Of a stretch of 11,228 nucleotides of DNA, positions 1 to 11,228 are shown in pieces (position 1 is the stretch's first letter; the number at the start of each line of letters is the position of its first letter). A model generated the notes under the pieces. It ran no database searches. It was not told the DNA's origin and was given only the letters and a program-made list of their open reading frames with translations. Location of the stretch: assembly GCA_002786025.1 (NCBI GenBank), contig NHNW01000152.1:1-11228 (forward strand). The letters are read 5' to 3'. Source of the DNA: Zasmidium citrigriseum. Its lineage: Eukaryota > Ascomycota > Dothideomycetes > Mycosphaerellales > Mycosphaerellaceae. The translations under genes were made by a program, and so were the position numbers.

Positions 1-241
1 GTTACGCTTATATAAAAGGATATATACCTATATAAAAAGTTTAGAGAGAGGTTCTTAGGATCTAGACTAGTATAAATATCGATAGAGGAAATATATAGTA
101 ACTAAATCGATTAGGCCTTAACTATTAAGGCCTTATAAAGCTATAGAGTCTAACTACTTTTACTAGCTATATTAGCTAGCTATAATATTAAGAAGTAAAC
201 GCTATCTATATAAATAGTAATAAGACCCTCTATTTCCTTAA
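1..241. other. Unassigned left edge, possible 3' part of gene A
   Basis: On the minus strand the last exon frame of gene A stays open, apart from TAG/TAA codons, down to base 1. The coding look weakens after about 264, where a copy of the intron-associated 13-bp repeat appears. A further imperfect copy lies at about 161-186. The stretch could hold one or two more introns with a short terminal exon, or 3' untranslated sequence. No acceptor and donor pair could be chosen with confidence. Confidence 0.3.
113..133. repeat. Perfect 9-bp inverted repeat (hairpin)
   Basis: AGGCCTTAA at 113-121 is the exact reverse complement of TTAAGGCCT at 125-133, with a 3-nt loop. It contains no CA or TG, so RIP could not have altered it further. 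It may be a chance palindrome in a sequence of very limited dinucleotide content, or a remnant of a terminator-like structure past gene A. Confidence 0.5.
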
Positions 242-263
242 TACTAGCTATATTTACTAGCTA
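242..263. repeat. Copy of the intron-associated 13-bp repeat
   Basis: The bases at 242-263 match the 22-base core found inside introns of gene A (for example 2914-2935). By analogy a sixth intron of gene A probably lies here. The nearby GT candidates on the minus strand are poor donors, so its borders are left open. Confidence 0.45.
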
Positions 264-496
264 CTTATTCTTTAGTAACTAATAAGGCTATCGTATACGA
301 AGCTTTCTACTAGTCTCGCTACCTAGCTTAGAGGCTAGAATTAGCGAGATAAATAGACGCCGTAGAGTTCTATAGCTTAGCGGAGCTAGTTACTCGACCT
401 CTAGAGGTAGTAGAGTAGTACCTAGCTCGCTTAAAGGAGAATTAGCGCTACTAGGGGGCGCTAGCTATATAGTAGCGTTAGTAGCTAGCTTAGTAG

Positions 497-706
497 GCTA
501 CTCTTCTAGTATAGTAGGTAGCTCTTCTAGTATAGTAGCCTACTCTTCTAGTACTATAGCCTACTCTTCTAGTATAGTAGTCTACTCTTCTAGTATAGTA
601 GTCTACTCTTCTAGTATAGTAGCCTACTCTTCTAGTATAGTAGCCTACTTATCTAGAATAGGGGCCTACTCGTCTAGAATAGTAGGCTACTTATCTAGAG
701 TAGTAG
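497..706 (-). repeat. Ten 21-bp tandem repeats encoding heptads
   Basis: Ten consecutive 21-bp units with no length change run from 497 to 706. The central units are almost identical and the right-hand three are more diverged. On the minus strand, in the frame of gene A exon 6, each unit encodes seven residues close to T-I-L-E-E-(TAG = Gln)-A, with Asp or Lys replacing Glu in the diverged units. The strict multiple of three and the conserved Leu/Glu spacing fit a coiled-coil repeat whose copy number can change without shifting the frame. Confidence 0.9.
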
Positions 707-818
707 TATCTCTTAGGGAAATATTAGCTAGTAGGTAGTAGAGCTACTCGTCTAGTAGTAGTAACTCCTTCTTAGGAGAGCTAGCGAGAGGTAAGTCGCT
801 AGGATTCTCGGATTATAC

Positions 819-875
819 CTATTCTACTATTAGTACGCGTACTCTATAGCTAGTAAATATAGCTAGTAGACTTAC
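819..875 (-). other. Gene A intron 5 (57 nt)
   Basis: Donor GTAAGT at 875-870, branch-like TACTAATAG, acceptor AATAG ending at 819. Removing it joins exon 5 (phase 0) to exon 6 in the frame that encodes the heptad repeats. It carries the shared 13-bp intron repeat near the donor. Confidence 0.78.
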
Positions 876-1261
876 CTTCTCCCTATCTAGCTATTCTATC
901 GAGAGCGGGTCTATAGCGAGTTACTACTAGCCTCTAGGGGACTCGATCGATTCGGCGATCTAAGGATTAGTTAACGAATTCTAATTAACTCTAGAGTCCT
1001 TCCTCGCTATCTTATCCTTTATATCTAGGAACGACGTATCTATATCTAGGGAAGATACGATACCCCTAAGGTCTAGACTATAGTACTACTAGTCCTAGCG
1101 AGTCTAGCCTTCGTTATCTTCCTAGTCCTCTTCGTCTTCTTCTTTAGTAGAGTTACGCTACGCTTCTCTTACGAATTACTCGTAGACTTCGGGATTAATA
1201 GTACCTAACTCTAGTATAGCTAGTATATTATTAATAGGCGTATAGTATACCCCTTAGGAAC

Positions 1262-1312
1262 CTATATCCCGTTAGTATTTATGTATCTAGTAAATATAGC
1301 TAGTAAACGTAC
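1262..1312 (-). other. Gene A intron 4 (51 nt)
   Basis: Donor GTACGT at 1312-1307, branch-like TACTAACG, acceptor ATATAG ending at 1262. Exon 4 ends one base into a codon and exon 5 supplies the other two, restoring a Gly codon and the open frame. The first half is nearly identical to that of introns 3 and 5. Confidence 0.78.
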
Positions 1313-1338
1313 CGCTACCTCTCGATCTAGCCCCTAGG

Positions 1339-1398
1339 GTCTTAGCCTATAGAGTCTTAGCCTATAGGTTCTTAGCCTATAGGTTCTTAGCCTTTAAG
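1339..1398 (-). repeat. Four 15-bp tandem repeats (AKNLQ-type pentads)
   Basis: Units begin at 1339, 1354, 1369 and 1384. In the minus-strand frame of gene A exon 4 each encodes Ala-Lys-(Asn/Thr)-Leu followed by TAG (former Gln) in most copies. The period is a multiple of three. Confidence 0.85.
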
Positions 1399-1451
1399 GT
1401 CTCGTTAGGGAGGGATAATAATAATAATACGCGGCTCGAGATCGCGATAGG

Positions 1452-1505
1452 ACTACTCTTAGCCCTACCTTTACGCGGCTTACTCTTAGCCCTACCTTCG
1501 CGTAG
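1452..1505 (-). repeat. Two 27-bp repeats (GRAKS-K-P-R-K type)
   Basis: Two adjacent near-identical copies of about 27 bp sit in gene A exon 4. On the minus strand they encode basic Gly-Arg-Ala-Lys-Ser segments. The period keeps frame. Confidence 0.75.
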
Positions 1506-1635
1506 CTTATAATCGATCTAAGAGGCAAAATTATTATTCGCTATATAAGAGGCGTAACCGTTACTCGCTATAAAGATAGTATAACCGCCGAAGAGGGGTA
1601 GTAGGCGCTTTCTAGTCTCTTCGCTAATATTGCTA

Positions 1636-1749
1636 CTAGAGCTATTACTATCGTCGCTAAGATTATTAGGAGAACTAGAGCTATTACCGTCGTCGCTAAG
1701 GATATTAGGGGAACTAGAGCTACTAGCGTCGCTAAGGATATTAGGAGAA
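1636..1749 (-). repeat. Three 36-39-bp repeats (Ser/Asp-rich)
   Basis: Units at 1636-1674, 1675-1713 and 1714-1749 (39, 39 and 36 bp). In gene A exon 4 they encode Ser-rich repeats with the core S-P-N-(I/N)-L-S-D. The 36-bp unit has lost exactly one codon. Confidence 0.85.
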
Positions 1750-1910
1750 CTAGGGCTATCGCCGCCGCCGCTACCGCCTAGGAGATTAGAGGAAGTAGAG
1801 CGCCTATTTAGAACTAGAGGGGAGGATTTACGAGGTCTAGTATTACTATTCGACCTTATACTACTTATAATAAGGTCCTACTTAGTAGGAGGGGGTTCCT
1901 AAGGGCTAGC

Positions 1911-1986
1911 CTATAACTACTTAAATATTAGTACTTTTACTCTATAGCTAGTAAATATAGCTAGTAAATATAGCTAGTAGACGTAC
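1911..1986 (-). other. Gene A intron 3 (76 nt)
   Basis: Donor GTACGT at 1986-1981, branch-like GTACTAATA, acceptor TTATAG ending at 1911. Removal joins exon 3 (phase 0, ending in Lys codons) directly to the Pro-rich start of exon 4. It holds almost three tandem copies of the 13-bp TAGCTAGTAAATA sequence, more than any other intron here. Confidence 0.78.
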
Positions 1987-2657
1987 CTTCTTCCTATCCT
2001 TAATCTCTTTAATCTTTTACGTAAGGGCGTTAATTCTATCGTTAAATATTTCTTCGATCTTGTTCGTATACTTCTTCGTAGCGTTATACCTATACTATTT
2101 AATAGTTAAGTAGGCCCCCTTTACTATTCTCTCCTTCTAGTCCTAGAGTTCTATATACTTTTTTCGTAGTGTATTCTCTTCGGCTAGGATATTAGCCTCT
2201 CTTTTATTAGTAGCTTTTTTACGTTACTTCCTCGCTACTTCGAGCTTCTTTTACTTTAATACTTACTCGTCCTCTTTAGGAGAATCCTCGCGTACTCTCT
2301 TCGCTAATAGTAGCTTAGAGGGATCCTTAGCCGCTTTTCTCTTTATATTTAGGAGGTAACTTAGTATCTAGAGGTATCGTTATCTAGCCTTATTATCCTT
2401 CGCTTCTTAGATACGGGCTAGTCTCGCCGCGAACTCTTTCTCTCTATTCTCCTTATACTTCTCTAGAGCTTCCTACCTCGTCTTATACTATAACGATTTC
2501 TACTCTTTAGTAGAACCCTTTCCTAGCGTATTAACTATAATGTCGGGTTTAGCTCTACTAAGCTTAATACTATATACGCTAAGGACTAGATTAAGTATAT
2601 AGATATCCTTATCTATTAAGGTCTAGCGTTTCGTATAATACGTAATATAGGTCGCTA

Positions 2658-2709
2658 CTAAAGTTATTAGTATAATATAGCTAGTATTTATATCTAGCGT
2701 TTATTATAC
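2658..2709 (-). other. Gene A intron 2 (52 nt)
   Basis: Donor GTATAA at 2709-2704 (weaker than the others), branch-like TACTAATAAC, acceptor CTTTAG ending at 2658. It divides phase 1 to phase 1 and is needed to pass from the frame of exon 2 into that of exon 3. It contains a degenerate copy of the shared intron repeat. Confidence 0.7.
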
Positions 2710-2895
2710 CTTCTATTATTATAATAATCTATGTCTTAGCTATATCTCTTAGCGCTTTAATCGCGCTCTCCTAGAACCGTATATCTTCCTTATAGGTTAT
2801 AGCAATTTCCTATATAAGCCGAGAGAACGACTAAAATAGGATCGCTAGTTCGTTATATATATACCGCTACTAATAACTAACCGTATCCTTTATTT

Positions 2896-2946
2896 CTAAA
2901 TTACGTTAGTCTCTACTAGCTATATTTACTAGCTACTAATACTTAC
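2896..2946 (-). other. Gene A intron 1 (51 nt)
   Basis: Donor GTAAGT at 2946-2941, branch-like GACTAACG, acceptor ATTTAG ending at 2896. Exon 1 is 286 nt, so it ends one base into a codon. Exon 2 then reads in a frame with few stops and a good coding look. The shared 22-base core occupies 2914-2935. Confidence 0.75.
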
Positions 2947-3136
2947 TTCTAATTATTTTCTTCCTCTCTTTCTCTTCCTCTACCTTCTAAGCTACCTTAA
3001 CTATATATATATTCTTTCCGCCTATACTAAGATACTTCTATAGCGCTTTTCTAGCTCTCGCCGCGCCTAATACGGTTCGCTACGTAGTTTTCGTACGCGC
3101 TATCGCGGCGGTAGTAGGTAAGGTATCGTTAGGTAT

Positions 3137-3199
3137 AGGTAATATTCTAGCGCGTATAGGTAATATCTCCGCGTAAGTAGGTAATATTAGCGCGTAATT
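3137..3199 (-). repeat. Three 21-bp repeats near the N-terminus of gene A
   Basis: Units begin at 3137, 3158 and 3179, each opening with AGGTAATATT or AGGTAATATC. On the minus strand they encode heptads of the type ILPxxAx, residues about 12-32 of the decoded gene A product. This is a second heptad block, unrelated in sequence to the one at 497-706. Confidence 0.7.
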
Positions 3200-3232
3200 T
3201 TCTAACGTCTAAGCGAGGTACGATAGCGTTAT

Positions 3233-3525
3233 TTAAAGTTAGAGGTTTATAAGATTACGACGAAGATAAGCGAGCGTCGCGCTAGCGCTACTAGCGTCGT
3301 TTTATAGCTAATTAAGAGCGGCGTAAAAGATATAGTTAGTAATATAGCTAGTATATACCGTATATAGTATCCTTATATTTATATAGGATTTAGGTTATAT
3401 TTTCTATATCTTAGCGAATCTATAGCTCTTTCCTATATATTTCCGTACCTATCTATACCTTTATCTAATTTTTACTTAGTAACCTAGTAAAGACCTAGTA
3501 AAGCCTAGTAGAAGCCTAGTAAAAA
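3233..3525. other. Spacer between genes A and B
   Basis: No reading frame with a convincing coding look was found here. It should hold the promoter of gene A and the 3' untranslated part of gene B. A degenerate copy of the intron-associated repeat lies at about 3333-3355, and a short tandem repeat begins at 3482. Confidence 0.5.
3482..3525. repeat. Four 11-bp tandem repeats
   Basis: Units at 3482-3492, 3493-3503, 3504-3514 and 3515-3525 share CCTAGTA followed by purines. The array lies just past the inferred stop of gene B and adjoins a hairpin built from the same CCTAGT core. Confidence 0.8.
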
Positions 3526-3532
3526 TTATACG

Positions 3533-3569
3533 GCCTAGTAGCCTAGTTTTACTAGGCTAACTACTAGGC
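3533..3569. repeat. Nested inverted repeat (hairpin with bulge)
   Basis: GCCTAGTA (3533-3540) pairs with TACTAGGC (3562-3569). Inside it GCCTAGT (3541-3547) pairs with ACTAGGC (3551-3557) around a 3-nt loop. The only unpaired part is TAAC at 3558-3561. It covers the last codons of the decoded gene B and could act at its 3' end, or be a remnant of a small foldback repeat. Confidence 0.65.
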
Positions 3570-4289
3570 TAAAACCCGGTTTCGACCTAGCCTAGCCTAC
3601 CTCGGGGTCTATAACGAGGCTATATAGTAACCTAACTACGCTATTAGAAGGCCTATTCGAGCTTTATTAGAGGGATAGATAGTATCGATACGAATTAGAC
3701 GCTATAGGATCTCGTTTAACTATTAGGGACTTAACCCGCTAGGGCTTCTTAATTACCTCCCTCTTATTCGTAGGTATATCTCTTTAGAGGTAGTCTCTTA
3801 TAAGCTTATCGATAGTAGCGTTTAGAGTATTACTATTATCGTTATCTATATAGTTATAGGCGCTAGCCCTAAAGAATATAGGAAGGAAAGGGCTACTAGA
3901 TTATATATACTAAGTAGCGTTTATATCGTAGAGGATAGGTTCTATAGGAGTAGCTACTAGCGTTCGACTTATAGGGGAATTAAGGATATACGCTAGCGGA
4001 TACTCGAGTAGTCTCCGTAGCGTCGATTCTATAATCTAATTAGACCTTAGTAGTAGATACTAGCTTAGTCTCTATAGGCTAACTATATATAATAACTTCT
4101 AACCTTACCTTAATAGGTATCTTTAGCTACGCTTACAAAATTATAGTTAGGAAGATAGCCTAGTTCTTATTCTAGTAGCTATCTTGTCTATAAAATATCG
4201 CCGCCTAAGTATAGGCTTCCTTAGTCTAAATCGGAGTCCTTATTACGTTATAGGGTATATAGACTATATTAGATCTTATACTAGGTTAC

Positions 4290-4333
4290 CTATAGACTAG
4301 TAGGTTACTTACCTAAACCTCCCGTATACTTAC
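4290..4333 (-). other. Gene B intron 2 (44 nt)
   Basis: Donor GTAAGT at 4333-4328, weak branch candidate CTACTAG, acceptor CTATAG ending at 4290. Without it the frame of exon 2 does not connect to the well-supported frame of exon 3; with it both join in phase 1. At 44 nt it is near the lower limit for fungal introns. Confidence 0.62.
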
Positions 4334-4453
4334 CTAAGAAGTCTACCTTCGTCTAGTCTAAGATCTAGCTATATACTACGAAGAAGTCGGCCCTAAGCTT
4401 ACCTATATACTAGTCCTCTTAGAGGATAAGGACTATACTAGCTAAACTACCGA

Positions 4454-4507
4454 CTATTTTATAAGTTAGTTAAGATCTCCTACTACTACTATAGTTCCTA
4501 TACTTAC
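4454..4507 (-). other. Gene B intron 1 (54 nt)
   Basis: Donor GTAAGT at 4507-4502, branch-like TTAACTAAC, acceptor AAATAG ending at 4454. The length is a multiple of three, so frame alone does not prove it. The strong donor, branch and acceptor, and the non-coding look of the stretch, support it. Confidence 0.68.
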
Positions 4508-5033
4508 TAATTCCCTTATACTATAGCTATAAGGTTAGTACGATTTACTTAATCTTTATACTAAGCTCCTCGTTATAGTATTCCTATAGGTAGTCCTCCT
4601 CTATTACTATATAGGCTATAACGATACGACGCGTACCCTATAGTATTCTAACTACCTTTATTCCGTATTACTTCTAGGTCTCTTTAGCCTTAGCTATCGT
4701 ATACTCGCTAGTAGTACGCTTTATAGCTTCGTACGTTATCTAGTCTTTATAGGAGCTAGTAGGATCGAAGACGATATTCTTATAGTCGCGGTAGATATAG
4801 CGGGGGTAGGTTATAACGAAGTAGATAGGCTTAGTACTATCGAGCTCGTCTAATAGTAGATATATAATTCTTATAGCGTTAGTAATATTTAATTAAAAGT
4901 TATAGAGGGAAATCCTTATAGTAAGTCGCTCGCTAGCGTTAATATACCTACTCTAATAGTCGTTATAACGATTAGATATTCTATCGGTATAGCTATCTAC
5001 CTTACTAAAGATCTAATATAGCGAGCGCGCTAT

Positions 5034-5285
5034 CGCTACTAGCCCTAATTAGCCGATTTACTACGCGCGGGGGTTTATTAATAAGCCGAGTAACGTATAC
5101 TAGCGCCGCCGCTTTAAAATCCCTAGCTTAGCCCCTAAACTTCCTCTTAGATATACCTACTAACCTCTCCTTAGCTATATCTTCGAGTAGTACTAGTAAC
5201 TCCTCTTCTCCTTTAATATCTTCTATTAATATTAGTAAGCTTCTTCTTTATTAATATCGCTCTCTAACGCTAACCTTTACTAGAT
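5034..5285. promoter_or_regulatory. Divergent intergenic region between genes B and C
   Basis: These 252 bases separate two inferred starts facing away from each other. Bases 5200-5265 on the plus strand are rich in C and T, as is common just upstream of fungal start codons, and precede gene C. No specific factor site can be read because RIP has altered any CA or TG within it. Confidence 0.4.
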
Positions 5286-6242
5286 ATAGCTCTATTAGAT
5301 AGCGACTATATTATTAAGCTTACTAGTAGCCCTAAGTATACTAATAGCCCTAAGCTTTATAACGATAGTAAGGCCGCTAACGCTACTAAGACCTAAGAAT
5401 CTAACGCTATAGTTACTAATACCTCTATTATCTAGGCTCTATCCTCTCTCGGCGATCTCTCTAACGCGCTCGACTAACTCGTCGCTACTACTACGTCTAG
5501 CCTCGAGATAGCTAAGGCTATTACCTACGCTATACCTAGTAGTAGCTACTAAGTCGCCTATATTACTATAGGTAGTAAAGCGCTACGTAAGATCCTAAAG
5601 TATAAAGCTACTAAGATAGCTCGCGATAGCGATAATAACGAGCTCGACGAAGACGAAGACTAAGATAATATCGTCTTTATTAATACTAGCGTCGAGCCGA
5701 ATCGTTACTATACGAAGAAGTAGTACTAGGTATACTATACTCTTCCTCTATTAGAATCGAGCCCTACTAACCTTCTCTAGATCCTAGCTATTATCGATTT
5801 TATAGACGATAGCTATAGCGTTACGTACCTAGTCCTAATCGATATACGTCTAGTACTTTATCTAGGTATCGATATTAGCGCCTCCTTTATATTCTAGTAC
5901 CGTATCTTACCTAAGGGCGTCGCTAGCTATAAGAGGCGCCTACCTAATATTAACTACCTCGATAATCGCCTTCCTAGTATTAGCTAGATCTAGGATAGTC
6001 CTAGCTACTAGTTCGCTCGCTATACTCTAAACGGTAGCCTAAATAGCTATATACGCTACGCTAAAGCTATCCTATAGGCCTAGTCTTAAGAGTATCCTAG
6101 TATAGCTTACGATAAGAACTAAGTATTAGTAGGCTAAGAGAAGATTATTAGGAGGTTTAGTAAGGGCTTAAGATTAATAGGCTATACTATACTTAATAAG
6201 AATATAATAAGCTTAAGATACGAGGTCTTAAGTAGATAGTAA
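5286..6242 (+). pseudogene. Gene C: RIP-inactivated single-exon gene, function unknown
   Basis: Not recognised. The inferred start is the ATA at 5286 (reading Met-Ala-Leu-Leu-Asp), after two in-frame TAA codons at 5265 and 5271. The frame runs without a shift to a TAG-TAA-TAA cluster at 6237-6245. The last TAG may be a former Gln, so the stop is placed at 6240-6242. That gives about 318 residues. Residues 1-110 are rich in Ser, Thr, Asn and Ala and look disordered. Residues 116-125 are strongly acidic (Asp/Glu). The C-terminal half is mixed, with many Tyr codons that may be former His or Cys. No membrane segment is seen. It ends 19 bases from the convergent gene D. Confidence 0.58.
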
Positions 6243-6261
6243 TAAGAAAGCTTTAGGTACT

Positions 6262-7602
6262 TTATTCTATATAATAATTTTCCCTTACCTTCTAATTTCT
6301 CTATATTATAATAATTTCCTACGCCTTATCTAGAATCTAGCTAAAGTACGTAATATTATTTCTCCGCGCGATACGTAGAGTAGTAATATAACGGTATAGC
6401 TTCGATATCGCCTAATCCCTAATATACGGTCTACTAGAGATATTAAATTACGTCGCGAGTTATTTATATACTTAATAATAACTTTATATTCTTAGTAAGG
6501 TAATTCTTACTTATAGTTACTCTTTACCCGCGAACCCTTACCTTACGTCTAGTATTATACGACGTTAGAACCTTTATATTAAAGTAGATACTCCTAGTAA
6601 AGCCTATAGCCTATTAAAACTACGTCGATACTACTAATTTATATATCTAATATAGTCTTAAAATACGCTTTTAGGATAGCCCTAATCTAAAGATCTTAAG
6701 AATATAGCGGCTAGCTAGGTTTTAGGTTACTTTACTAGCTTTAATCGATACCCGATTATTAGATATACGGTTTACTAAAATTTACTTTAGAAATCGCGAT
6801 CGGTAGTTATATAGGTTAGTAATCTCCGTATCTCCCTATATTAAGCTATAATTCCTTTAATTAGATACTCTCTCCTATAATACTCTTTTTTATTATTACT
6901 ATTATAGTTATAGCGCTTTTCGAGCTATTAGTAGCTCCGTACCTTCCTTATAAGGTTTCAAATCCTAGATTCCGTTACTATAGGTAATACTAGCTTACTA
7001 TAATAATTATAGACGTAGCGACGAAGTTTCCGATACCTTATAAACCCTCTCTTATATACCGCGCACGTTAGTACGCTTTATCCGACTCGTATAATATAAA
7101 CCCGTCTACCTTTATATTAATTTAAGCTCGCTAGGCTCTTAACTATAGCTCTTACTATACTCCTATCTATAAGCTCGAAGTTTTAACGCCTTATTACTTT
7201 CGCTATCTCCTATCTCCCGTCTTAACGACGCTTTCTAACTATATCGCGCTATAGGGACTACTAGGAGTCCTCTAGCGAATACGCTACTAGCGTATTATAG
7301 CCGCCTCCTCCTACGTAGATAGTCTCTCCTCTAGTACTATCTCCTTCGAATATCTAGCGCCTATAGCTATTTCTACTACTTACTAATAAAGAGCTTAGTA
7401 TTTCTCCGTTAGACGCCTAGGAAATACGTAGCGCTCTACTCTCTATAGAGAGATCTAGTTCTTAGACTCCCTCCTTTAAGATTATAGTATATAGAGCTAG
7501 CCGCTAGACGTCTCTATTTCGTCCTAGCCTATACTCGATAGCTCCGTATAAGACCTTAGCTAATTCTTCTACGCTAGCGAACGTAGCTTAAGGTAGTGGT
7601 AT
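6262..7602 (-). pseudogene. Gene D: RIP-inactivated single-exon gene, function unknown
   Basis: Not recognised. The minus-strand frame from the ATA at 7600-7602 (former ATG, reading Met-Pro-Leu-Pro) to the TAA at 6264-6262 is exactly 447 codons with no frameshift. Its only breaks are TAG/TAA. The decoded product, about 446 residues, is rich in Arg, Lys, Glu and former Gln. Residues roughly 20-130 are helix-like with alternating charged and aliphatic positions. A run dense in former Gln codons follows around residues 130-160. The last part is basic (Arg-Arg-Asn type). No membrane segment is seen. The CCA codon right after the start is one of the few CA dinucleotides left. The gene is divergent from gene E, about 100 bases away. 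An alternative frame in the 3' third (about 6350-6640) also looks fairly open, but continuous frame to a stop favours the model given. Confidence 0.66.
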
Positions 7603-7705
7603 AGTACTCGTAGCGTTATAGGCGTAAGATATTATAGATATAGGAAAGATTCTAGGGCTCTTAGCTTAGGGTTAGCTTCTTTATAGTACTTTTAACTTAG
7701 CGACT
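7603..7705. promoter_or_regulatory. Short divergent region between genes D and E
   Basis: These 103 bases lie between the inferred start of gene D and the preferred start of gene E. This is tight for two promoters, so either they share elements or the true start of E is elsewhere. The E frame stays open through this stretch, so the border is not sharp. Confidence 0.35.
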
Positions 7706-10700
7706 ATAAGAGGTATAGTAGACGCCTATAATTCTCTTATTACTAAGAATAATAGCAATATATAAGCCGCTATCTAAGTTATTCTACGCTATTTAAACCG
7801 TTATACTAAGTCTATAGAGGATACGTTACTCGTAGCTATTACTATTACTAATACCCTCGCTATAAAGCTTTTAGGCGGTATCGAAAATGTCTCGAAGCTA
7901 TCTAGAGGCCTATATACGCTAGAGAGGAAGTAAGGAGACGCTAATCGGAAGTTTATAGAGACTAGTAAGATTTATAAGATAGTAACTATCGACTTTCCTC
8001 TACTATTTACGTACCTATACCTTAGCGGATTAATAGAACTCGCTCTAGATAGGAGATTATTAGACTAAAAGAGCCTTAACCTTAAGGAGACTAGGTTAAT
8101 AAAGGGCCTTCTCGAGCTCGCTACTACTAAGGACTAGGATTAGACGTAGGTTATTAGCCTTATTATAAAGACGATTTTCTAGCGTATTAAGAGTAATTAC
8201 GTATATCTATACTAAATAACGGCCGCTTTTTATACTATAGCGGATAATCTTATAGAAGTATATAAGTAGCTTAAAGACGAGAAGAAGGCCTAGTTAATCT
8301 CTAATATTACTATTACTATAGACGAGGTCTAGGAGCTTAACGAGAAGCTCTAGGCTTATAGCGATAGTTAGGTAAAGTAGAAAGCTCGTACTATACCTTA
8401 AGATCTATATTATATTCGTATAAACTACTACGGAGCTCTAGAATAGTATAGGCGTAGAGCCTACCTTAAGGATATTATAGCTTTAGTAAGTACGCTACTA
8501 CTTATCGAATTTTAGCCTTCTACCCTAGGCGGTAACCTACCTTCCCGTAAGTAGTTATAGACTCTTAGCGCTAGCCTACCTCTAGACGATAATCGATTAC
8601 TCGATCTTATAACTAGTCTCGTTAGTAACGATCGTAGCCCTACTCCGTTAAAGTAGTAGCTAAACGAATACCTTACGACTAAGAAGAGGAAGCGTTAGAA
8701 GATCGTAACCTAGCGGTCGATACCTACTAGTAGCCTTAACGCTTCTCCGTTAAAGCTTCTATCTAGCGCCTCTACTAAGAAAGCGAATAACCCGCCTAAC
8801 GAGCCTAAGAAGTAGATAGACGGCTCTAATAGGGAAGATAGGGATAATTTAGAAACTAAGCGTATTCTCTAGACCGCGGCGAACGTAAAGAGAAAGCTCT
8901 TTAGAGATAAGTAGAGCGTAAGCGATACTAATAATACTAGCGATATAGCTACTAATACTACTTCTTCCGCCTCTATAGCTTAAGACGAGACTCGAGTATC
9001 TAAAGAGCTAGATAATTTTATAGATACGCTCGAGGATTAAGCTTAGTAAGGCGTAGACGAGATATAGCCTAAAGATATAGATATCGATTCCGATTAAGAG
9101 GATTAGGATACGGAGCTTAAAGGTATTAATAGTATAGGAATAGATACTAGCGAGGAAGACGAGCCTACCGATAAAGATAAGCCTACTAACGATAGCGTAT
9201 AGGACCTCTAAGCTACTAGATTAGACGTAAACGGCGACTTTACTACTTCTAGTAAGCTAGTTTACGCTAGAGACGTAATAAGTATAGCCCTATAGCCGTT
9301 AGAAGACTTTTAGATAGATACCTATTACTACTCTCGCTATCTAACGTATAGCTATTAGCCTAAAAAGGTCCTAGGGGTAGGAAGAAACGGCTTTATCTAC
9401 GCTAACAAATTTCGGGCTACGGTCCGTAGTCTCCTAAAGAAACCCTCGAAGAATTACTAGCGCGAGACTCTTTAGCGTAGATTTAAGAAGCTTTGTCGAT
9501 ACTTTACCGCTATTAGGACCCGTAAGCTTTAGCTATATTAGGGCTATCTTAAGGAAGCTCTATCTATCTTTAGTCTAACGCGAGATAATCTAGCGCTCGT
9601 TAATAGCGAGGAAATCGTCGTATAGCTTAAGAAGTTTTACGCGCTAATATAGATCCCTATCGATTAATAGCTACTATCGGACAAACATAACGACTTCTTC
9701 CTATATATAACGCTATCGCGTATACCTATTAGCCTTCTCGATCTAGGCTTAATAAACTAGACGACCCCTTACGTCCTTAATAATACTTTCGAATTCGAGC
9801 TTAGATAAGGTCTTACCTAGAAGATCCTCTAGGAGACCTACCCTAGGTTCTAAGACTACTTAGAGGCGTATAACTTTATAACCGTAAGATCGAAACTATA
9901 GCTAGAAGAGCTCCGCGATCTAGTCTCGTCTAAGGTATACCTATACGATCGTCTATATAATCCTCCTCTAGGCTTAAAGTATACTACTAATATATAGAAC
10001 GCTATAGATACCCTCTACTTATAGCTCTTCCGTATAGATATCGAGAACTATATATTATATACTTACTCGAGCGATAATCTCTAGTATAAGGTTATTACGT
10101 ATCCTATACTAGTTTAGTATCTCCGTAACGGTACCTATAATATACCTAATATATAGGTACTATACTATATATAGTATATTAACGAAATAGGCTATAATAG
10201 TCTTATTAACGTAGTTATATATATAAATTAGAATATATCGGCGAGCGCCGACGCTACTAGGAACGGAAAGCTAAATAGCGAGATACTACTAGACCTCGTC
10301 CTCCTAGGCGTAAAGGAAGCGGACGTTAAAGAGTTTATTAAGTTAACTAGACTATCCGTAAATATCGTTCTAAATTAGGTAGCTCGTAAGAAGAAATAGT
10401 AGCCGCGCTTTAGCTAAATATATATCGTTAGTAGACTCTCTAGCGACGTAACTATTATTAGGCCTTCCGTACTACGTAGAATATTAGCTTTAAAGCCTAG
10501 TGTTACGTAAGTACGTCTAACTACTCGATATCTCCTAATTTATAGCGATAGTATAATTATAAAAGACCTCCCGAAGGCCGATTTTATTACGTCTATTATC
10601 TTACGGTAGAATCCTCTAATTTTACTAAACGGTTATCCCTAGGAAGTATTACTAGAGTTCTAGGCTAGTTAAATTACAGCCGAGAGCTTCCTCGACGAGC

Positions 10701-11228
10701 CGCTTAACCTGCTTATACGCGTACTTCTTATAGGTAGGCTATAGGACGCTCCTAGTATTATCGAGTAAAAGAAGAGAGTATTCTCCCCTAATTAGTAAGT
10801 CTAAGATACGATTATCTAGGAGACTCGCTAGTAGTATAAGAAGATCTTTAAGAAGCTAATAGCCTAGAAACTTAACACTTAGATAGTAAAGGGCGAGGTC
10901 GTCTTCGCTAGCGACGTTATAACGAAAGGAGAGAGAATTAAGAATATTTTCCTAGGCGCTCCGTTTTAACGCGATATCTCTCGCGTAGCTAGCGAATTCT
11001 AGGACAAGTATATCTAGGCTTTTAGTACGGTTAACTAGTAGTTCGAGGATATAGATAAGCCTCGTACTACTTAGGTCGGTTATAAGGAGATTACTATAAC
11101 CGCTAATAACTCGGTATTCGAGGTAGATAAGGCCTTCGTTAGAGAGCCTAACCGTAGGAATAGATAGACGAATAGAACCGAGAACGTAGTTCTATATAAG
11201 CGTCTAGTACTACGGAGGCCTTCGCCTC
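7706..11228 (+). pseudogene. Gene E: RIP-inactivated very large gene, 3' end beyond the window
   Basis: Not recognised. One frame runs without a shift or a needed intron from 7706 to the last base, over 1,170 codons, broken only by TAG/TAA. The start is taken at the ATA at 7706-7708 (Met-Arg-Gly, A at -3). The ATA at 7715 is an alternative. The same frame is open upstream to about 7319, but that stretch is antisense to the better-supported gene D. Residues about 1-270 are helical and Leu/Ile-rich. A basic cluster Lys-Lys-Arg-Lys-Arg near residue 326 looks like a nuclear localisation signal. Residues about 430-500 are highly acidic (Asp/Glu with former Gln). A mixed-charge globular-looking region follows to the edge. 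The basic and acidic blocks inside an otherwise folded protein suggest a nuclear role, but this is inference only. No helicase, polymerase, transposase or recombinase motif was recognised. Confidence 0.7.

Follow-up and report, generated by a model that had tools for sequence, protein, structure and literature searches.

hAT transposons that carry histone H3-like genes have already been published, as passages of two papers describe (PMC6710886; PMC3538342). According to the passages of the first, a hAT family in Pseudocercospora fijiensis and its relatives consists of elements of about 9.5-9.9 kb with short terminal inverted repeats (TIRs), an 8 bp target duplication, one or two H3-like genes per element and the CA to TA changes of repeat-induced point mutation (RIP); the H3-like copies are intronless and retrocopy-like, with no other domain reported in those passages, and the host H3 gene has three exons (PMC6710886). 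The Pyrenophora tritici-repentis element, as far as the passages of the second paper describe it, is 5.6 kb long and holds, between its TIRs, a transposase, one H3-like gene (H3L) with an altered tail and another gene of unknown function; a figure legend mentions introns in expressed sequence tags of the element, the gene concerned not being specified in those passages (PMC3538342), and little RIP is attributed to this element in passages of PMC6710886. The stretch analysed here (the window) is the entire 11,228 bp contig C56 of the 44.4 Mb, 148-contig genome of Zasmidium citrigriseum, in which several contig ends have TTAGGG repeats (C and L labels are our handles for contigs and loci). It is very probably a nested pair of RIP-inactivated repeats, in which an H3-carrying hAT transposon (X, represented by its right 3.6 kb at 1-3611) lies inside a multi-gene repeat (Y, 3612-11228). 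X is a further variant of the published elements when compared by description rather than by TIR or consensus sequence. It is like the P. fijiensis family in size, target duplication, TIRs, number of H3-like genes, RIP pattern and three-exon host H3 gene, and like the P. tritici-repentis element in the kinds of gene between its TIRs. It differs from the former in that one of its H3-like genes is extended by a long coiled coil and has five introns, one of which sits where the host H3 gene has one, and from the latter in length, in degree of RIP and in having more than one H3-like gene.

The assignment to two repeats rests on DNA searches of the genome, in which 1-3611 and 3612-11228 behave as members of different repeats. 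The left part is common to five other loci (C46, C121, C93, C105 and C1) at 86-95% identity, and the flanks past 3611 differ among these loci, as read by eye. To the right of 3612, Y runs on in C55 and C39, where it extends upstream of that point with non-X sequence. The differing flanks of X, together with the continuation of Y past 3612, indicate that X inserted into Y, probably with an 8 bp target duplication; the presumed duplication is TAACGAGG at 3612-3619, with its partner outside the contig. Immediately before it, at 3483-3611, lie subterminal CCTAGTA repeats and the right TIR, which ends in CCTCGGGGTCTA at 3611.

At full length, measured in C93, X has 9,807 bp, and the window contains its right third. 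Both copies with both ends readable (C1 and C93) are bounded by inverted repeats and have exact 8 bp target duplications (ATCTAAAG in C1 and GTAGTAGC in C93), and the short TIRs of the C93 copy are TAGACCCCGAAGTAGGCTAGGC at the left end and TAGACCCTAGGGTAGGCTAGGC at the right end. The hAT dimerization domain PF05699 is found to the left of the window start at 21.4 bits, which is at the cutoff (C93, L022), and the X transposase is homologous to L071, which itself scores over that cutoff. Histone matches (PF00125) also lie to the left of the window start in four X copies (E values of 3.5e-15, 6.1e-15, 5e-14 and 1.3e-15), and the last 17 codons of this H3-like gene 1 (1-51, forward strand) continue the PF00125 match seen in L022, L023, L024 and L021. 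With its 8 bp target duplication, short TIRs and a transposase with the dimerization domain, X is a hAT transposon, predicted to encode the transposase, H3-like gene 1 and a second, spliced H3-like gene (gene 2). A lightly RIPped hAT relative at C120:304600-311760 (L071 and L073) has the order transposase then H3-like and still has stops. PF00125 has 52 matches in the genome, 38 of which contain TAG or TAA.

Gene 2 is predicted on the reverse strand from 3103 to about 264, the latter figure being that of the original prediction, as six exons with an N-terminal H3 domain and a long Lys/Glu-rich coiled-coil extension. Exon 1 (2947-3103) starts ATA-ARTK, exon 2 (2710-2895) contains the bulk of the histone fold and exon 3 (1987-2657) contains the end of the fold and the start of the extension; exon 4 (1313-1916) is serine-rich, exon 5 spans 876-1261 and exon 6 (264-818) has heptad-like repeats. 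In the charged region behind the histone fold, a 21 bp tandem repeat of about ten copies (491-706, reverse strand) would encode 7-residue units. The introns, all on the same strand, are a (2896-2946, 51 nt), b (2658-2709, 52 nt), c (1917-1986, 70 nt, or 76 nt if it extends to 1911), d (1262-1312, 51 nt) and e (819-875, 57 nt); the placing of intron c follows from splice sites in six copies and a length that, modulo 3, fits the frame change. All five have GT...AG ends and an ACTAA(C/T) branch-like motif in six of six copies, and their lengths match the changes of frame by which the gene runs through three frames. An alternative 34 nt boundary for intron a broke the frame and was dropped; the 51 nt version fits.

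The spliced, X-masked N-terminal part of gene 2, scanned in three of the six copies, matches PF00125 at 32.1 (window), 39.2 and 27.1 bits, in each case over the cutoff of 26.4. Against host H3 the window copy scores 111 (shuffles 28.5 +/- 4.8), and the scores of the six copies run from 91 to 120, compared with shuffles that average about 28 and never exceed 55. Length differences between copies, not all of which are independent events, point the same way: where the window and five other copies differ in net length, the difference is divisible by 3 in 11/11 cases in exons and 0/3 in introns, and the MAFFT gaps are so in 32/32 and 1/4 cases, respectively. The blastn gap counts in two exon stretches are mixed (15/28 and 8/14 multiples of 3). 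A substitution test clearly singled out no exon frame, coming closest for exon 3 (z of -6.3 versus -5.0 for the next frame, all mismatches); its first run for 330-820 was distorted by tandem-repeat alignments and was redone without them. The model of gene 2 therefore rests on the lengths, the introns and the histone match. Intron a agrees with the second intron of host H3 in position and phase (15 residues before ELLI/ELAI, phase 1), so that the probable source of gene 2 is a genomic copy of host H3; the first host intron has no counterpart in gene 2. The core histone fold is present, and the window tail starts ARTK and lacks the ARKS that contains Lys9 in the conserved H3 tail, so that gene 2 is H3-like rather than a canonical H3. 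The copies of X show capture, spread by transposition and then silencing by RIP.

Two further observations concern the introns of gene 2. A 13 bp motif, TATAGCTAGTAAA or its complement, occurs in both orientations in or at introns a, c, d and e (845-887, 1282-1324, 1943-1985 and 2914-2944) and also beyond the end of the gene (150-184 and 242-272), and its copy number in intron c varies between X copies. In the C1 copy, a 0.5 kb insertion (C1:85771-86267) lies within intron a (equivalent to window positions 2910-2919) with about 10 bp doubled.

Repeat Y contains three putative genes of no recognized family. Gene C (3687-5165, reverse strand) is best supported over 4122-5165, and its frame is not firmly shown; gene D (5169-6254, forward strand) is the gene whose other copies have an internal H3 N-terminal tail; gene E (6251-11228, forward strand) has at least about 1,650 codons and continues past the end of the contig. 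The order D then E recurs in C54, C90, C93, C38 and C29, and ten other long matches to E show 31-34% identity across 1,034 to 1,647 query residues. Since a third of gaps should be multiples of 3 by chance, the MAFFT gaps favour coding to unequal degrees, with 295/411 for D (105 pairwise alignments of 15 copies), 123/249 for E (15 pairs, six copies) and 38/65 for C (21 pairs, seven copies); in chosen subsets the counts are 72/76 for D, 9/10 for C and 12/16 for E, with 3/9 for C against its C38 copy. In the substitution test, based on conservative transversions, the D frame has a z of -13.5 (an antisense frame -9.7) and the E frame -8.0 (an antisense frame -4.4), and the mismatch rates at codon positions 1, 2 and 3 of E over 9900-11128 are 0.30, 0.16 and 0.40 (p = 1e-23).

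Relatives of Y have so far been found only within this genome. No homologue was kept by alignment-based searches for E, C and D (7,988, 7,994 and 8,000 candidates scored, respectively), and nothing credible for C, D or E was found in Pfam, the PDB sequences or the protein collection. The Pfam matches to Lipid_DES (E value 0.018, two of the eight members of the E alignment) and MYT1 (0.051, one of the nine members of the D alignment) were taken as chance, as were those to GAS, HSDR_N_2 and DUF2975, which are under the cutoff. The PDB matches of C to Thp1 (0.33), of E to Motility protein B (0.085) and of D to VP4 (0.087) were treated likewise. Every D and E match listed (33/33 and 27/27, the window included, some of them pieces of one gene) contains TAG or TAA. 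A distant second E-like frame lies downstream of E in C55 and C39 (L039 and L040; 113-123 bits versus 64 for the next best frame), and diverged tandem pairs occur, with D-like sequence twice in L034 to L037 and C-like sequence twice in L035, L036 and L038.

The link between D and H3 comes from a probe consisting of the host H3 coding start (75 bases), RIPped in silico. A genome-wide BLAST search with this probe listed ten matches with E values from 4.1e-14 to 7.0e-8, nine of which lie inside D matches; the remaining one, at C3:29163, overlaps sequence that matches the corresponding part of D. The alignment of the RIPped host tail to D copies covers Met to Leu20, passes over the position of the first intron of host H3 and includes a single insertion of 3 bases. 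Scores were obtained for ten copies, with 200 codon shuffles and the reversed tail serving as nulls (means 11.0 to 12.8, maxima 17 to 23). The best scores are those of C85 (44; null mean 12.8, maximum 22), C94 (41; null mean 12.5, maximum 20), C11 (39) and C106 (39), followed by C54 (29), C93 (28), C38 (26), C90 (23), C39 (19) and the window (18). In the C106 copy the stretch agrees with the RIPped host tail at 35/37 bases, compared with 24.6 +/- 1.7 for controls (n=180), three controls above 28 being probes that overlap another studied locus or the H3 gene itself. Of seven pairs of copies compared, six show higher conservation over the 14 tail residues than over the remainder of D (for example 11/13 versus 76/187), and the seventh, the window and C38, shows lower (7/13 versus 251/298). 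In searches of PDB chains with a D profile, H3 tail peptides account for all 16 matches listed (best E value 0.39), and a single D copy matches Cse4 at an E value of 1.2. These alignments show that several D clades carry part of the host H3 coding region, extending at most from Met to Leu20.

Several observations weigh against parts of this interpretation. In X, the PF05699 match in C105 (L023) reaches only 14.0 bits, which is under the cutoff, and the substitution test makes no clear choice of exon frames in gene 2. In Y, multiples of 3 are not in excess among frame-blind blastn gaps (77/340 for D, 13/60 for E, 31/194 and 16/115 for C), many of the alignments being just 65-77% identical, a range in which blastn tends to split gaps, and no frame of C stands out in the substitution test. 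Terminal repeats of Y were not found, contigs C55 and C39 ending inside it, and for this reason Y is not proven to be mobile; capture and spread by transposition followed by RIP are possible for Y. The D of the window has itself lost the tail, the eroded place of which (5561-5597, forward strand) matches at 25/37 bases with a score equal to the null maximum of 18; the tail is also missing from the C102 and C29 copies and was not seen in the D copies of C35, C40 and C88. The matches of the D profile to H3 chains in the PDB are not significant, and with a broader profile the H3 peptides fall to E values of 1.7 and worse, with three other chains higher. The tail is internal in D, whereas that of a histone is N-terminal, and in one group of D copies (L049, L059, L060, L061 and L063) the place of H3 Lys14 is an ATA-coded Ile. 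Finally, no transcript, protein or intact copy backs any function.

The state of the DNA itself bears on how much of this could be artefactual. The window is saturated by RIP, as the original prediction had stated: its 11,228 bases contain 12 CA and 12 TG dinucleotides (observed/expected 0.02), with TA raised to 1.9 and CG retained at 1.48, the depletion of CpA/TpG in favour of TpA that marks RIP targets in repeats. The copies of X and Y examined are RIPped, as is usual for repeats. Since RIP removes TG, and hence TGA, the six frames of the whole window contain one TGA and all six are open if TAA and TAG are read through, so that frame length alone is no evidence of coding. The long frames that the original prediction obtained by reading through TAA and TAG therefore have no value by themselves as a coding test, and they might be taken as a product of TGA loss in DNA that never coded for anything. 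The absence of any Pfam family at E <= 1 in the six unspliced frames of the window is in keeping with this view, as are the indecisive substitution tests for C and the exons of gene 2 and the blastn gap counts. RIPped DUF3435 and histone genes are still detectable in the same genome, so known domains can be recognized in spite of RIP. The 11/11 exon lengths of gene 2, its histone match over the cutoff once spliced, the intron shared with host H3, the MAFFT gaps in D and the codon-position bias in E refute the artefact for gene 2, D and E, leaving it very improbable overall.

An equally improbable account is that of the original prediction itself, in which the window holds five unspliced genes forming one undescribed set with intact relatives elsewhere. 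The lack of a credible match for C, D and E is consistent with it, and its statement that no family was recognizable holds for these three and fails for the left genes, which match two known families, histone H3 and, beyond the window start, hAT transposase. Real dead genes are indeed present, as indels, codon positions and relatives indicate, and would escape standard gene finders, as predicted; five genes of no known kind are not present. In 1-3611 the account is refuted by the hAT with its spliced H3-like gene: intron-free models fail in this left third because the genes there are spliced, and the claimed absence of frameshifts is wrong where one gene with five introns uses three frames. 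X, as an insertion, lies outside any shared set, and two repeats, one the end of a hAT inserted into the other, replace the single set. The packed layout with divergent neighbours is borne out for C and D. The codon-position bias named in the original prediction is present in E, and the proposed homologue search (about 8,000 candidates each for E, C and D) yielded no intact relative. That the H3 tail in D arose by chance or by convergence of a basic, serine-rich segment is the least probable of the alternatives. Only the protein searches of PDB chains, being not significant, lean that way; the resemblance is at the DNA level with shared codon choice, spans a host exon junction and, at E values down to 4.1e-14 genome-wide, has all ten listed matches in or at D genes. 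A more serious contender, given somewhat less than an even chance, is that Y is not mobile but a multi-copy block of chromosome ends that has a gene family of its own and was RIPped because recombination had duplicated it. A D match lies less than 20 kb from a contig end in nine of the 11 D-bearing contigs known to be longer than 100 kb (one match per contig, C3 left out), no terminal repeats were seen for Y and its copies form arrays of genes, for example C-D-D'-E. Against this, repeats are where contigs tend to end in any case, the C94 and C98 copies lie 231 and 60 kb from an end, respectively, and the content of the block varies.

The nested arrangement of X in Y thus remains the preferred reading, by which a previously unreadable RIPped contig is resolved into named parts, a spliced and extended H3-like gene is added to the account of H3-carrying hATs, and a second repeat family, apparently unrelated to X, has taken just the H3 tail. 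H3-tail histone mimics have an ARKS-type tail segment outside a histone. The segment in the D family is likewise ARKS-type and would differ in being a captured piece of an H3 gene in a RIPped multi-copy repeat. A literature search, with most subscription journals outside its reach, recognized, among the papers listed, no report of an H3 tail in the protein of another repeat. Before RIP, the D protein may have displayed an H3-like tail with Lys9 in an ARKST setting as a mimic. Such a tail could have occupied the H3K9 methylation and heterochromatin machinery of the host as a decoy or, alternatively, could itself have been methylated and bound by heterochromatin proteins, thereby placing the element in heterochromatin. 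That the D tail was a histone mimic of some kind is suggested only tentatively. The wider proposal, that D of Y diverted or exploited H3K9 silencing through the captured tail while a separate hAT was armed with H3-like proteins, so that two independent selfish-DNA lineages made use of host H3, is somewhat more doubtful still. The repeated capture of a protein whose methylation silences repeats raises the question of whether mobile elements mimic its tail to escape or to use heterochromatin.

Other searches of the window concerned RNA families and further element types. An Rfam scan of the window gave no match, and a KDZ search gave none either, its control likewise matching nowhere. No DUF3435 match, the mark of a Starship captain, was found in the six frames of the window by a search that did detect a RIPped DUF3435 gene elsewhere in the genome. 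That gene, of the Starship captain type, lies at C70:484061-485419 (L042-L044).

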